NCBI RefSeq assembly: GCF_000092205.1
Contig: NC_014216.1
Coordinates: 2,671,742-2,735,741 of the forward strand
Length of the DNA stretch: 64,000 nt
Direction of reading: 5' to 3'
Source: Desulfurivibrio alkaliphilus AHT 2
GTDB lineage: Bacteria; Desulfobacterota; Desulfobulbia; Desulfobulbales; Desulfurivibrionaceae
The translations under genes were made by a program, and so were the position numbers. Below the pieces are notes generated by a model, which saw only the letters and a list, made by a program, of their open reading frames with translations, searched no databases and was not told where the DNA came from. This document shows, one piece after another, positions 10,232-63,202 of the stretch; the first letter of the stretch is position 1, and the number at the start of each line of letters is the position of its first letter.

Positions 10232-10263
10232 GCTCAAGAGGGCAAGATGCAAGCTACGTGAAT

Positions 10264-10418
10264 CCTGGACGGGGGCCGGGAAAACCGGTAGCGGCGGGTT
10301 CGCTGGCGGCCGGGCGCATGGACGCGCAGGAGGCCGCCAGCGCCTCGGAGGCGGGCATGGATGCCCGCCGAGAATGAGCCGCTACCGGTTTTTCCGGCTC
10401 CCACCCCCTGGCCACAAC
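10264..10418 (+). repeat. Family-2 three-way-junction repeat, copy A
   Basis: An outer stem of about 20 bp (10276-10295 with 10378-10397; core AAAACCGGTAGCGGC) encloses two hairpins: CGCTGGCGGCC with GGCCGCCAGCG, and CTCGGAGGCGGGC with GCCCGCCGAG. The flanks CCTGGACGGGGGCC and CCACCCCCTGGCCACAACC recur at other copies. It fills most of the gap between rsmB and uvrA. Confidence 0.85.
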
Positions 10419-10457
10419 CCCAAAAACTACGGTCATAAGCCCGTTGAGAATTATTTA

Positions 10458-23061: not shown

Positions 23062-23994
23062 ATGAGCGCCGATTACCTTTTTCCGCATCGACACATCCTG
23101 GGGCTTGGTGATCTGGCCGCCGCCGATATCGATTTCATTCTTAAAACCGCCGAGAGCTTCAAGGAAATATCGCAACGCTCGATCAAGAAGGTGCCCACCC
23201 TGCGGGGGAAAACGGTTATCAACCTGTTTCTGGAACCCTCCACCCGCACCCGGCTCTCTTTCGAGATCGCCGCCAAGCGGATGAGCGCCGACACCTTCAA
23301 CATCTCCGGGGCCGGTAGCAGCACGGCTAAGGGTGAGACCATGGTGGATACGGCCCGTAACCTGGCGGCCATGAACCCCGACTGCATCATTATCCGTCAC
23401 TCCTGTTCCGGCTCCCCCGGCCTGCTGGCCCGGCATATCGATGCCTCGGTGATCAACGCCGGCGACGGGGCCCATGAGCACCCCAGCCAGGGCCTGTTGG
23501 ACCTGATGACGGTGCGGGAGCACAAGGGGCGAATTGCCGGTTTGAAAGTGGCGATCATCGGGGATATCACCCACAGCCGGGTGGCCCATTCCAATATTAT
23601 CGGCTTTTGCAAAATGGGGGCCGAGGTTCGGGTGGCCGGGCCCGCCACCTTGATCCCGCCGGGGATTGCCGCCATGGGCGCGCAGCATTGCCGCTCGGTG
23701 CGCCAGGCGGTGAGCGGGGCCGATGTGGTGATGACCCTGCGGATTCAGAAGGAGCGCCAGCAGGACCCGCTGCTGCCCTCCTTGCGGGAATACGCCATCT
23801 TTTACGGGATTACCCCGGAAATCATGGCCCTGGCCGCGCCCGATGCCATCCTGATGCACCCCGGCCCCATTAATCGAGGGGTTGAGCTTGATCCGGCCCT
23901 GGCCGACGGGCCCCGCTCGGTTATCCTGGACCAGGTGACCAACGGGGTGGCGATCAGGATGGCCCTATTGTACCTCATAATGGGTGGAGAATAG
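23062..23994 (+). CDS. pyrB: Aspartate carbamoyltransferase catalytic subunit
   Basis: 310 residues. Carbamoyl phosphate-binding motif STRTRLSFE (about 54-62), the HPSQGLLDL block and a C-terminal [11 protein letters not shown] aspartate-binding loop are all present. It performs the first committed step of pyrimidine synthesis and is followed by pyrC. The G of its TAG stop is the first base of a family-1 repeat that separates the two pyr genes. Confidence 0.97.
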
Positions 23995-24144
23995 TAATCG
24001 TACAGCAGCACCGCATCTTCGGGCGATCAGCCAGGCTTACGTACAGGGGGTACGCTGCGCCTGTCTGCTTGCCCGAACCTGCGGCACTGCTGAACGATTA
24101 CGGCCCGTTAGACCGGTAAGTTGGTACCCCTGGTGAACGTTTAC
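23994..24144 (+). repeat. Family-1 palindromic repeat, copy 2 (with second unit)
   Basis: The main palindrome (23994-24101) has ends GTAATCGTACAGCAG and CTGCTGAACGATTAC, with one mismatch in the outer stem. The second unit (24102-24144) ends GTGAACGTTTAC. It shares one base with the pyrB stop codon and ends next to the pyrC ribosome site. Confidence 0.9.
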
Positions 24145-25473: not shown

Positions 25474-25601
25474 TAGCTTACCGCTTAACGGGCTGTAATC
25501 GAACAGCCGTGCCGCAGGTTCGGGCAAGCAGCCAGGTGCAGCGTACATCAGTACGTAAGCCTGGCTGATCGCCCGAAGATGCGGTGCGGCTGTTCGATTA
25601 C
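25453..25601 (-). repeat. Family-1 palindromic repeat, copy 3 (with second unit)
   Basis: Second unit 25453-25493, main palindrome 25494-25601 with ends GTAATCGAACAGCCG and CGGCTGTTCGATTAC (perfect 15-bp outer stem). It overlaps the pyrC 3' end and stops 6 bp short of the stop codon of the convergent flagellar rod-like gene. Confidence 0.9.
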
Positions 25602-28507: not shown

Positions 28508-28658
28508 GTAACCGTTCACCAGGGGTACTAACCTACCGGTATAACGGGCCGTAAGCGAACAGCCGTGCCGCAGGTTCGGGCAAGCAGCCAGGCGCAGCGT
28601 ACCCCCTGTACGTAAGCCTGGCTGATCGCCCGAAGATGCGGTGCGGCTGTTCGCTTAC
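28508..28658 (-). repeat. Family-1 palindromic repeat, copy 4 (with second unit)
   Basis: Second unit 28508-28550; main palindrome from 28551 with ends GTAAGCGAACAGCCG and CGGCTGTTCGCTTAC (perfect outer stem). It abuts the dprA stop codon (28659) with no gap and sits between dprA and topA. Confidence 0.9.
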
Positions 28659-31458: not shown

Positions 31459-31482
31459 AACATGCTACTCCTTGAGATATGT

Positions 31483-31589
31483 GTAAGCGTTCAACAGTGC
31501 CGCAGGTTTGGCCTTGCAGCCAGGCGCAGCGTACATCAGTACGTAAGCCTGGCTGATCGCCCGAAGATGCGGTGCGGCTGAACGCTTAC
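31483..31589 (-). repeat. Family-1 palindromic repeat, copy 5 (main palindrome only)
   Basis: Ends GTAAGCGTTCAACAG and CGGCTGAACGCTTAC. Its terminal TTAC, read on the minus strand as GTAA, supplies the TAA stop codon of dnaG (31586-31588). No second unit is present. It fills the dnaG-rpoD gap. Confidence 0.9.
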
Positions 31590-34842: not shown

Positions 34843-37134
34843 ATGAAAAACCTTTACGATCATCTTGAGGCCCGGGAGTTTGTGGCTGCCCGTTCTGATT
34901 GTTCCGAAGCGCTGGCCCTGCGGGTTTATACCTCGCGGCTGATCGGCCGTGAACCGGAACTGGTGCTGCATGGCGGCGGCAACACCTCGGTTAAGGCGGT
35001 GGTTCCCAATATCCTGGGCGAGGAGATGGAAGTGCTCTACATCAAGGGCAGCGGCTGGGATCTGGCCACCATCGAGGCGGCCGGTTTTCCCGGCCTGGAT
35101 CTGGCCTGGCTGCGTCGTCTGCGGGTGCTTGAGCGCTTGAGCGATGAGGAGATGGTCAACCAGTTCCGTACCCACCTGCTGGATGCCGCCGCCCCGGGGC
35201 CGTCCATTGAAACCCTGGTGCATGCCTTTCTGCCCCACCGTTTCATTGATCACACCCACGCCGACGCCATTGTCACCCTGACCAACCGCCATCAGCCGGA
35301 AAAGCTGTTGCGGGAGGCTTTGGGCGACCGGATCGCCATCCTGCCCTTTATCATGCCGGGCTTTCCTCTGGCCAAGGCCATGGCCGCCGCCTATGAGGAA
35401 AACCCGCAGATTGAAGCGATTATTTTGCTCAACCACGGGATTTTCACCTTTGCCGACGAGGCCGAGACCGCCTACGGCCGGATGATCGATTACGTCAGCC
35501 GGGCCGAAAATTTTTTGACCAAGGTGGCCCAAGAATGGAGCGCCAGGGGAGAAGATCTTAAGGCACTTGGTCATGGCACCGGGGTGGGGGCCGCCAACTC
35601 CGGTAGCGGCTCATTCTCGGCGGACCTGCGGCCCGCCTCCGAGGCGTCGGCTGCCGCCGACGAACCCGCCGCTACCGGAGTTGGCGGCCCCCGTCCAGGC
35701 GCGGATGTGACGGGTGCCCGGGAGGGCGTCAACGCCTCTGGCGCCGAAGTCCTGGCTTCGCCTCCGCCGCCTGCTCCGGTGGAACTGCTGCCCCTGCTGC
35801 GGGGTGCCCTGAACCGCGGCCTGGAAGACCAACGCTTGTGCTTCAGCCTGGACTGGCGGCGGGATACCGACCTGCAGGCGGCCCTGGCCCGGCCCGACGG
35901 CCGTGAGCTGTTCACCGGCGGGGTATTGACCCCCGATCATGTGATCCGCACCAAGAACTACCCGCTGTGGCTGGATTTTGCCGGGGCGTCCGACGAAGCG
36001 GCCCGGAACGCTTACCTGAAACGGGCCCTGGCTGACTATGCTGCCGCTTACCAGGGCTATTTTGAGGAGCAGTGCGCCGCCGGGAAGGTGCAAAAACAGC
36101 GGCTGGATCTGCTGCCCCGGGTGATTATGGTCCCCGGCCTGGGCCTGATCGGGGCCGGCACCAGCCCGGCGGCGGCCCGGATCGCCGCCGATATCGCCAC
36201 CCATACGGTGCGGGCCAAGCTGCGGGGTGCGGCCTTGGGGCAATACCGGGAACTGGAGCCGGCCTCGATCTTTGCCATGGAGTACTGGAGCCTGGAACAG
36301 GCCAAGCTGGGCAAGGGCAGCCCAAGGCTGCTGGAGGGCAGAACAGCCTTGGTTACCGGCGGTGGCGGGGCCATGGCCCTGGGCATTGCCGATCGCCTGC
36401 TGGCCGCCGGCGCCCGGGTCCTGCTGGCCGATATTCAACCGGAGCGCCTGCAACTGGTGGTCGACAAATTACAGCGGCGCTTTGCCCCGGAACTGGTGCA
36501 GGGACTAAAGTTTGACGTCACCGACCCGGAGTCGGTGCGCGCCGGGTTTGCGCAGTTGGTGGGGCAGACCGGAGGCCTGGACATCTTGGTGCCCAACGCC
36601 GGGATTGCCCAAGTGGCCAGGCTGGAGGAACTGTCGGCGGAGGGTTTCCGCCGGGTGATGGCGGTCAATGCCGACGGGGTGCTGCTGACCATCCGGGAGG
36701 CGGCGAAAATTTTCCGGCGTCAAAATTGCGGCGGCCAGATCGTCATCAACAGCTCCAAAAATGTCTTCGATCCCGGTGCCGCTTTCGGGGCTTACAGCGC
36801 CTCCAAGGCGGCGGCGCACCAGCTGGGGAAAATCGCCGCCCTGGAACTGGCGGAAATCGGGGTGCGGGTCAACATGATCAACGCCGATGCGGTTTTCGAC
36901 GCCGACGGGGTTTCCTCCGGGCTCTGGGACCTGGTGGGGCCGGAGCGGATGCAGGCCCGCAACCTGGACCCGGAAGGCCTGCGGGCCTATTACCGCCAGC
37001 GCAACCTGCTGAAAACCGAGGTCAAAGCTGAAGATGTGGGCAACGCCGTGGTCTTCTTCGCCGCCGGCCAGACCCCCACCACCGGCGCCACCCTGCCGGT
37101 GGATGGCGGCATACCCGCCGCTTTTCCCCGGTAA
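34843..37134 (+). CDS. Bifunctional class II aldolase / short-chain dehydrogenase
   Basis: 763 residues from the ATG at 34843, preceded by AAGGAA. The N-terminal half is a class II aldolase/adducin domain (HGGGNTSVKA; metal-binding HTHADAI; ILLNHGIFTF). The C-terminal half (about 500-763) is a Rossmann dehydrogenase (LVTGGGGAMALGIADRLLAAG; NAGIA; catalytic YSASKAAAHQ). This is the RhaD/YuxG-type fusion likely acting on a deoxy-sugar phosphate or similar polyol; the substrate is unknown. Residues about 245-312 are a Gly/Ala/Ser/Pro-rich insertion, of which 245-285 is encoded by an intact family-2 repeat in frame. It ends at a family-1 GTAA. Confidence 0.88.
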   Translation: MKNLYDHLEAREFVAARSDCSEALALRVYTSRLIGREPELVLHGGGNTSVKAVVPNILGEEMEVLYIKGSGWDLATIEAAGFPGLDLAWLRRLRVLERLSDEEMVNQFRTHLLDAAAPGPSIETLVHAFLPHRFIDHTHADAIVTLTNRHQPEKLLREALGDRIAILPFIMPGFPLAKAMAAAYEENPQIEAIILLNHGIFTFADEAETAYGRMIDYVSRAENFLTKVAQEWSARGEDLKALGHGTGVGAANSGSGSFSADLRPASEASAAADEPAATGVGGPRPGADVTGAREGVNASGAEVLASPPPPAPVELLPLLRGALNRGLEDQRLCFSLDWRRDTDLQAALARPDGRELFTGGVLTPDHVIRTKNYPLWLDFAGASDEAARNAYLKRALADYAAAYQGYFEEQCAAGKVQKQRLDLLPRVIMVPGLGLIGAGTSPAAARIAADIATHTVRAKLRGAALGQYRELEPASIFAMEYWSLEQAKLGKGSPRLLEGRTALVTGGGGAMALGIADRLLAAGARVLLADIQPERLQLVVDKLQRRFAPELVQGLKFDVTDPESVRAGFAQLVGQTGGLDILVPNAGIAQVARLEELSAEGFRRVMAVNADGVLLTIREAAKIFRRQNCGGQIVINSSKNVFDPGAAFGAYSASKAAAHQLGKIAALELAEIGVRVNMINADAVFDADGVSSGLWDLVGPERMQARNLDPEGLRAYYRQRNLLKTEVKAEDVGNAVVFFAAGQTPTTGATLPVDGGIPAAFPR
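35575..35700 (-). repeat. Family-2 three-way-junction repeat, copy B, inside a coding sequence
   Basis: A perfect 25-bp outer stem (35586-35610 with 35668-35692; core CCAACTCCGGTAGCGGC) encloses hairpins CTCGGCGG/CCGCCTCCGAG and GTCGGC/GCCGAC. The inner order is reversed relative to copy A. The flank GCCCCCGTCCAGG is shared. It keeps the host frame open. Confidence 0.85.
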
Positions 37135-37140
37135 AAGCCG

Positions 37141-37248
37141 GTAAAAGTCCGTAAGCACCGCATCTTCGGGCGATCGCCCCGACTTGCGTACCTGGGGTAC
37201 GCGGCGCCGGGGCGCTTGCCCGAACCTGCGGCACTTACGAACTTTTAC
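37141..37248 (+). repeat. Family-1 palindromic repeat, copy 6 (main palindrome only)
   Basis: Ends GTAAAAGTCCGTAAG and CTTACGAACTTTTAC; the stem differs from all other copies but still pairs. A direct duplication of its edge, CCGGTAAAAG, lies at 37129-37138 and 37139-37148; the first GTAA supplies the stop of the upstream gene. Confidence 0.9.
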
Positions 37249-48319: not shown

Positions 48320-49386
48320 CGGGTGCCTCCGCTTTTTATGGGAGAATCCGTTGAAATTTTTGGTTGTTGCACCGGGCTTCGCGGCCCCCGTCCATGCGCG
48401 GAGGCCTGGTTTTTTTCCCAATGGATAAGGGCCCACTGGGAGGGGGTGTCGCGGCGCAGGGCCAGGCGGCCGTCCGGCTTGGGGTGCAGGCGGGCGTCTG
48501 CGTACTCCTCCAGGCGGTGCTGTTCTTCGGGGGAAAGGGGTTCTTCGGCCGGGATCATCCAGAGCAGGGAGTCGATGGCCCGTTGCCGATCCGGATAAAT
48601 TCGTTCGTGGTCGAGGATGATGAAGTCCACCTTGGCGTGGATACCCAGTCGGTAGAGGATGTTGAGGGTGTAGATATAATCCGGGCCGGGGTCGAAGGGG
48701 CGGCCCAGGGCGGCAAAGAGTTCCGGGTCGAAGGGGCCGGCCCCCACCCGGTCGCCGATGATGGCCAGGCATTTGCTGAAGCGGTCCATCTTTTTTAACG
48801 CCCCCTCCAGGTCGTCCACCGCCAGGGAACGGGAGGCGATGACCACGTCGTGGGCCTCTATGGCCAGTTTCTCCCAGTCATCCTCCCAGGCTGCCTGGAC
48901 GGGGCGGATGTTGTTAAGGCCCTGGCGCTGCTGTTCCTTGCTCAGTTCGGCCAGCATGGCGGCGGCGTAGTCAACGGCGGTTACCCGGTGCACCCGGCGG
49001 GCCAAAGGCAGAGCCAGGGTGCCGGGGCCGCAGCCGGCATCCAGCACGGTCCAGTGCGGTTGCCAGTGGAACCTGGCGAGGAACTGGTCGGTGTAGGGGG
49101 AGTCCAGGTTGCGGCTGGCAAAGTCGGCCGCCCGCCGGTCCCACTCTCCCCGGTTGCGGCGGGGTCGGCTCTTGTGGCGCCGCTCTTCCCGCCACATGGC
49201 GTTCCAGTCAAGATCGCGGTAGCGTAAGCGATCACGGGGCACCCCACCTTGCGGCAAGCGGGCCGGCTCACGTGCTGGAGCACGCATCGCCGTCCCGCTT
49301 GCCGCAATCTGGGGCACCCCGTGACCGCTTACCCCTCGATCCCCTTTATCATTTTGATCATTTTGATCATTTATGCGGTGGCGCAT
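48307..49386 (-). CDS. SAM-dependent methyltransferase, class I, with repeat-derived N-terminus
   Basis: Up to 359 residues. The SAM-binding glycine motif VLDAGCGPGTLALPLA (about 113-128) is followed by VTAVDYAAAMLAEL. The C-terminal part (WALIHWEKNQ) is family-typical but the substrate is unknown. Residues about 18-54 are encoded by family-1 copy 8 (49224-49332). The first conserved residues are near RYRDLDWNAMW, so the true start may be the GTG near 49242 or the ATG at 49201. The stop overlaps the trkA start by 13 nt. A short family-2-like fragment is at 48370-48403 near the 3' end. Confidence 0.7.
   Translation of the reverse strand: MRHRINDQNDQNDKGDRGVSGHGVPQIAASGTAMRAPAREPARLPQGGVPRDRLRYRDLDWNAMWREERRHKSRPRRNRGEWDRRAADFASRNLDSPYTDQFLARFHWQPHWTVLDAGCGPGTLALPLARRVHRVTAVDYAAAMLAELSKEQQRQGLNNIRPVQAAWEDDWEKLAIEAHDVVIASRSLAVDDLEGALKKMDRFSKCLAIIGDRVGAGPFDPELFAALGRPFDPGPDYIYTLNILYRLGIHAKVDFIILDHERIYPDRQRAIDSLLWMIPAEEPLSPEEQHRLEEYADARLHPKPDGRLALRRDTPSQWALIHWEKNQASAHGRGPRSPVQQPKISTDSPIKSGGTRCGS
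49224..49332 (-). repeat. Family-1 palindromic repeat, copy 8 (diverged), in the methyltransferase 5' region
   Basis: Ends GTAAGCGATCACGGGGCACC and GGCACCCCGTGACCGCTTAC pair with few mismatches, and the centre keeps the TTGCGGCAAGCGG / CCGCTTGCCGCAA motif seen in copy 7. The boundary GTAA...TTAC is kept. It is 89 bp from the preceding gene stop, not flush as in other copies. Confidence 0.75.
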
Positions 49387-52499: not shown

Positions 52500-52741
52500 G
52501 ACAATAAGGTCTCGTGGTATTGGTCTGCTCCAGGCATAAAAATGATCCGCCATGAAGCGGGTGAAAACTTCCAAAGAGCGTTCCGGGTTGACCGGTTCAC
52601 TGTTTTTGCGGGTTTGGCCGCTGCCGGGCACATGGACGTGCAGGAGGCAGCGGCCACCTCGGAGGCGGGCAGGATGCCCGCCGAGAATGAGCTAAAACAG
52701 TGAACCGGTCAACCCTCGCTACGGGCTCCTTTTGCAACCCC
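52500..52741. other. Intergenic region between hcp and the HD gene
   Basis: 242 bp, mostly occupied by family-2 copy C (52585-52715). No gene is supported here. Confidence 0.7.
52585..52715 (+). repeat. Family-2 three-way-junction repeat, copy C
   Basis: A perfect 22-bp outer stem (52585-52606 with 52694-52715; core TTGACCGGTTCACTG) encloses hairpins TGGCCGCTGCC/GGCAGCGGCCA and CTCGGAGGCGGGC/GCCCGCCGAG. The loop CATGGACGTGCAGGAGG matches copy A, while the outer stem is different. Confidence 0.85.
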
Positions 52742-63051: not shown

Positions 63052-63202
63052 GTATCCGTTCACCAGGTTTACTAACTTAGCTGTCTGACGGGCCGTAATC
63101 GTTCAGCAGTGCCGCAGATTCGGGTAAGCAGCCAGGCGCCGCGTACACCGGGTACTCAAGCCTGGCTGATCGCCCGAAGGTGCGGTGCTGCTGAACGATT
63201 AC
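63052..63202 (-). repeat. Family-1 palindromic repeat, copy 9 (with second unit)
   Basis: Second unit 63052-63094 (starts GTATCC instead of GTAA); main palindrome to 63202 with ends GTAATCGTTCAGCAG and CTGCTGAACGATTAC (perfect stem). Its final TTAC supplies the flgJ stop codon (63199-63201). It sits between flgJ and flgN. Confidence 0.9.

Follow-up and report, generated by a model that had tools for sequence, protein, structure and literature searches.

RESULTS

An aldolase/dehydrogenase gene with a perfect stem in its coding sequence

The window, by which we mean the whole stretch of DNA analyzed here, comprises 64,000 nucleotides (positions 2671742-2735741) of the Desulfurivibrio alkaliphilus AHT 2 genome, a single contig of 3,097,763 bases (3.1 Mb). 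On its plus strand, at 34843..37134, lies a gene for a bifunctional aldolase/short-chain dehydrogenase (aldolase/SDR) of the PRK08324.2-2 / NF006194 family, identified through its open reading frame, NCBIfam, and Pfam. The gene starts with the ATG at 34843 and encodes 763 amino acids in one open frame. The NCBIfam model NF006194 covers the whole protein (1,289.9 bits), and the Pfam domains are Aldolase_II at residues 29 to 221 and adh_short at residues 501 to 681. Directly downstream, the gene is adjoined by a copy (37141-37248) of a second dispersed palindromic repeat family of about 108 nt, the copies of which are 60 to 88% identical; others in the window lie at 23994-24101, 28551-28658, 63095-63202, and 372-479 and also at 25494-25601 and 31482-31589.

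The initial annotation had described an element with a perfect 25-bp stem that sits within the aldolase/SDR coding sequence and keeps the frame open. We observed exactly this: the left arm is at 35586..35610 and the right arm at 35668..35692, both given on the plus strand, and there is no stop across the element. The full arms, 35576-35610 and 35668-35702, are 89% complementary over 35 nt, with the 25-bp core perfect, and 35574-35705, folded as RNA, has a predicted energy of -103.9 kcal/mol. A palindrome is indeed present in the span first assigned to the element, 35575-35780, but the limits had to be moved. Semi-global alignment to the 202-nt consensus of the repeat family described below places the whole palindromic MITE-like element, 178 nt long, at about 35544..35721 (plus strand), where it codes for residues ~235 to 293. 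Between the arms are two inner hairpins on the same strand. Hairpin 1 (35619..35637) is degenerate in this copy, as judged from an alignment of 32 copies and pair counts. Hairpin 2 (35645..35662) has lost its conserved loop relative to the other copies and is therefore shorter, yet its 7-bp stem, read from the sequence, is perfect.

We then considered whether the gene is intact, as had been proposed, and the data agree. Besides the single open frame and the full-length NF006194 match, comparison with the gene of the sister species (84 to 86% protein identity) gave a dN of 0.10 and a dS of 0.58. Since private changes at 350 columns conserved in other relatives number only 4 in the window protein, versus 1 in the sister protein, the alignment gives no clear sign of decay. 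An AlphaFold2 model built from a 30-sequence alignment had a mean pLDDT of 81, with 599 of the 763 residues at 70 or more and the folded domains modeled with good confidence. Residues 241 to 304 fell below 50 and are flanked by helices at 207 to 234 and 312 to 325. The model thus predicts a disordered stretch that separates folded parts of the enzyme.

The segment interrupts a short, variable linker

Peptide patterns retrieved 80 homologous loci, the longest match spanning 2,121 nt, versus 2,289 nt in the window; the closest named relative in the genome collection is Desulfurivibrio sp. AMeS2. In an alignment of 34 homologues, residues 228 to 270, 278 to 295, and 304 to 308 of the window protein are absent from more than 80% of the sequences, and the insertion corresponds to about residues 228 to 295. 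The proposal that residues 245 to 312 are inserted was therefore right for most of its length and wrong at its end: residues ~294 to 312 (VNASGAEVLASPPPPAPV; 35722..35778, plus strand) align with the short variable linker common to relatives and, judged from this alignment, are native linker lying outside the element. The sister species has only such a linker at the site and reads RAEDYLTLAAGKPVTVSAAAIEVSESPAEILPLLRGAL in place of RAENFLTKVAQEWSARGEDLKALGHGTGVGAANSGSGSFSADLRPASEASAAADEPAATGVGGPRPGADVTGAREGVNASGAEVLASPPPPAPVELLPLLRGAL in the window protein. This indicates that the element probably fell into a native short, variable linker, which makes up the end of the low-complexity stretch. 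Homologues from other genera, in which the initial annotation had asked whether the same linker recurs, lack the segment.

The segment belongs to a dispersed repeat family

A genome search with the window palindrome returned 57 matching pieces, and the 202-nt consensus built from the copies finds about 37 places in the genome. The element is thus one member of a repeat family, as first suggested, and not a chance palindrome. Copies are 178 to 236 nt long and contain no transposase gene. Their common architecture consists of an outer stem and two inner hairpins, the loops of which are conserved, and the terminal inverted repeats start with CAGGGCAACGTCAAAGTC; intact copies, such as that at 1593432-1593644, are bounded by CAGGGCAACGTCAAAGTC and its complement. 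Other scored copies are 79 to 93% identical to the consensus. The window copy, with 73% of consensus positions identical when its internal deletion is included, is the most divergent of 44 copies, partly because hairpin 2 lost its loop, and its terminal inverted repeats have decayed.

Some copies in this genome match the core alone (consensus 62-146), for example that at window positions 52608-52692. Others in the window are at 10239-10419, just upstream of a uvrA-like gene, and at 48371-48402, so that full, core-only, and partial copies are all represented. The sister species (G002) has many copies, and related ones occur in other genera of the order, with conservation there often limited to the core around hairpin 1. 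In two different genera a copy lies upstream of a cobyrinate a,c-diamide synthase-like gene (L099 and L066). Rfam matched nothing in the window at gathering score, and a full copy gave just a chance-level match. A literature search for this palindromic repeat family found no description of it, and the family appears to be undescribed so far.

These observations bear on the simplest alternative, that this protein family natively has a low-complexity linker here, which is palindromic by chance. In all relatives the linker at this site varies naturally, as this explanation would have it. However, the segment occurs in no homologue, the sister species makes do with a short linker, and the same sequence family recurs ~37 times in the genome, mostly outside recognizable genes. 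We regard a native origin as extremely improbable.

Copies carry the marks of transposition

We compared the flanks of 44 copies from two species with re-paired flanks (200 re-pairings) as a control. An exact 8-mer was repeated at both ends in 5 of the 44 copies, against 0.09 expected and a maximum of 1 in the re-pairings. The target-site duplications of this subset are exact and 8 to 10 bp long, the clearest being GGTGATCATG (10 bp, at the copy in the HypF gene described below) and GTGCCGAGCC (at the copy at 614898). The family is short, dispersed, and multicopy, with terminal inverted repeats and target-site duplications, which is the structural definition of a MITE. From the duplication size alone, we infer a DDE transposase as the putative mover. 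A search of this genome for an autonomous partner with the terminal 18-mer (up to 3 mismatches) found no inverted end pair at insertion-sequence distance.

For the window copy, the flank comparison gave no 8-mer target-site duplication with one mismatch or none. A weak candidate for the left duplication, GGAGCGC at 35537..35543 (plus strand), can be read opposite GGAGGGC at 35721-35727 and is not significant alone. Because this copy is without a clear duplication and is the most divergent of the 44, its probable mechanism of insertion is taken by analogy from its family.

The stem is maintained across the family

In the alignment of 32 copies, 97.6% of stem cells are paired and 19 pairs are changed on both sides, a level reached in 0 of 500 shuffles. 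In the window copy, three stem pairs (alignment columns 52, 55, and 56; within 35586-35692) have changed on both sides relative to the other copies and are still paired. Neutral decay alone, in a linker that codes for protein, would not be expected to leave such a perfect stem, which weighs against the reading favored below. They could be explained by template-switch correction of imperfect palindromes or by descent from an unseen source copy.

The hairpin might instead be retained because it acts in the mRNA, perhaps by causing a pause that lets each half of the enzyme fold separately. Its stem is very stable, it sits between folded parts, and the strong covariation fits such a role. However, the covariation comes mostly from copies outside genes, it could equally reflect maintenance of a palindrome at the DNA level (through transposition or template-switch correction), and relatives of the enzyme manage without the hairpin. 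An mRNA role therefore seems to us very unlikely.

Other in-frame copies of the family

The same genome holds a second genic copy, at 258490-258686, which lies in frame in the gene for HypF (L089) and spans residues 403 to ~470. The NCBIfam hypF model matches both flanks of residue 403. The alignment of the solved HypF structure 3vth stops at query residue 402 and resumes at 481, with only four 3vth residues in between. HypF of the sister species is continuous at the insertion site, as are solved HypF sequences, and the insert is bounded by the exact 10-bp duplication given above. We found one hypF in the genome. The sister HypF (L154/L149, G002:C28) has its own extra segment of ~40 residues elsewhere, before the Sua5-like domain.

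The sister species has in-frame copies, full or partial, in PepN, in the linker of MutL, in SucC, between two CoA-activase domains, in a transglutaminase-like protein, and at the C terminus of a methyltransferase. In another genus of the family (G005), a copy lies between two Pfam domains of RNase HI. PepN, MutL, SucC, CoA-activase, and RNase HI are likely further cases of insertion, and the strength of the cases differs. Empty sites are demonstrated for HypF and aldolase/SDR; PepN is supported by the shorter linker of the window genome at the site of the insertion; and the rest are supported by domain boundaries or solved structures. Of the ~40 extra residues in SucC, 17 match the element. 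Three related genomes yielded no SucC orthologue with which to show an empty site, and this case therefore rests on solved structures.

Just 2 of the about 37 copies in the D. alkaliphilus AHT 2 genome are clearly genic. Long open frames over seven further copies (L081, L082, L101, L127, L131, L096, and L114) had no protein-family match and were treated as spurious.

Reading frames of the copies

Next, we asked how open the copies are. On average 2.1 of 6 frames are open per copy, versus 2.5 of 6 in dinucleotide shuffles. We therefore dropped the idea that the element was selected for openness. The two in-frame cases of this genome share one frame (GTGVGAA..GSGSFSA). Across species, at least three frames are used, including an Arg/Pro-rich one in the G005 RNase HI; this is the third of three mostly open frames, and the suggestion that just two of them are ever used was dropped.

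It has to be weighed, then, whether the element is adapted as a portable protein segment, kept open and benign so that its insertions build new protein parts, an idea put forward for coding palindromes. The shared frame of the two cases here is what one would expect of such a segment, as are the several likely in-frame cases within conserved enzymes of relatives. Against this, copies are no more open than their shuffles, three frames including the Arg/Pro-rich one are in use across species, and mere survival of in-frame insertions would give the same pattern. Given no excess of open frames and the use of at least three, selection after insertion can explain the pattern without coding adaptation, and we consider a portable protein segment very unlikely.

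DISCUSSION

We conclude that the segment most probably (roughly 85%) reached the aldolase/SDR gene by transposition and is one copy of a non-autonomous, MITE-like palindromic element. A dispersed element with CAGGGCAACGTCAAAGTC inverted ends, which left 8- to 10-bp duplications in a subset of copies, would have been moved in trans by a DDE-type transposase. Most copies would settle outside genes, as the open reading frame analysis of their loci suggests. A genic insertion would survive only if it is in frame, is free of stops, and falls at a site that tolerates it, owing to purifying selection afterwards and not to coding adaptation; the few tolerated genic copies are in frame, and most of them occupy inter-domain or loop positions. 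The window copy lies in frame and stop-free where relatives have a short variable linker, and the ~60 residues it adds are predicted to be a disordered linker, rich in Gly, Ala, Ser, Pro, and Asp, that joins two folded parts of the enzyme. At the level of sequence, the original proposal of a structured repeat that makes a new protein segment thus appears to hold.

A broader reading would have a mobile palindrome throughout the Desulfurivibrionaceae repeatedly making inter-domain linkers in core enzymes (aldolase/SDR, HypF, PepN, MutL, SucC, and RNase HI), with the hairpin kept perfect in coding sequence by acting on translation or cotranslational folding. We view this as speculative and unlikely.

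Most of what is known about palindromic repeats inserted in coding sequence comes from Rickettsia and Wolbachia; there, small intracellular populations experience weak selection, which offers a ready explanation. The present family extends the known phenomenon to the Desulfobacterota, in a probably free-living sulfur bacterium. At least one insertion, that in HypF, is recent and still flanked by its intact target-site duplication, and the sister genome has empty sites. Because the family appears to be independent, the HypF insertion is recent, and the sister sites are empty, it should be a tractable system for measuring the rate of linker gain from mobile DNA. HypF would serve well as a test case: a single hypF was found in the genome, and D. 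alkaliphilus was isolated as an H2-dependent sulfur reducer (PMC12142623).

Comparison with known palindromic elements

MITE fusions in general have been described in reviews (PMC2229807, PMC10969869). The Correia/NEMIS, ERIC, and RUP elements are likewise short and non-autonomous, with terminal inverted repeats, target-site duplications, and occasional in-frame fusions (PMC2229807, PMC10969869). They differ from the present family in their 5'-TA-3' motif, in place of which we observed an 8- to 10-bp duplication and the termini CAGGG..CCCTG. Related coding palindromes are cited in PMC2229807 for Wolbachia and Methanocaldococcus jannaschii; going by the cited titles, these protein-coding repeats seem to be the same phenomenon in other lineages.

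The Rickettsia palindromic elements (RPE; Ogata et al. 2000, as reviewed) are about 105 to 146 bp long and form in-frame fusions in conserved protein genes; they reportedly contain an open frame specifying a conserved peptide, and nearly half of them reportedly lie within genes (PMC2229807, PMC10969869). Both families are palindromic, roughly 100 to 200 bp long, and dispersed, and both occur in intergenic DNA as well as in frame in conserved protein genes (here aldolase/SDR and HypF), the host proteins of which presumably work. However, open frames are not in excess in the Desulfurivibrio copies, which lack the conserved coding frame reported for RPE, and 2 of about 37 copies in the genome are clearly genic, versus nearly half for RPE. 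Because the family has the structure of a MITE and lacks the conserved RPE open frame, we class it as MITE-like palindromes with in-frame genic insertions and not as RPE, a comparison made by description. Thus, the process is a known one, with its closest precedent in Rickettsia, and the element family appears to be independent.
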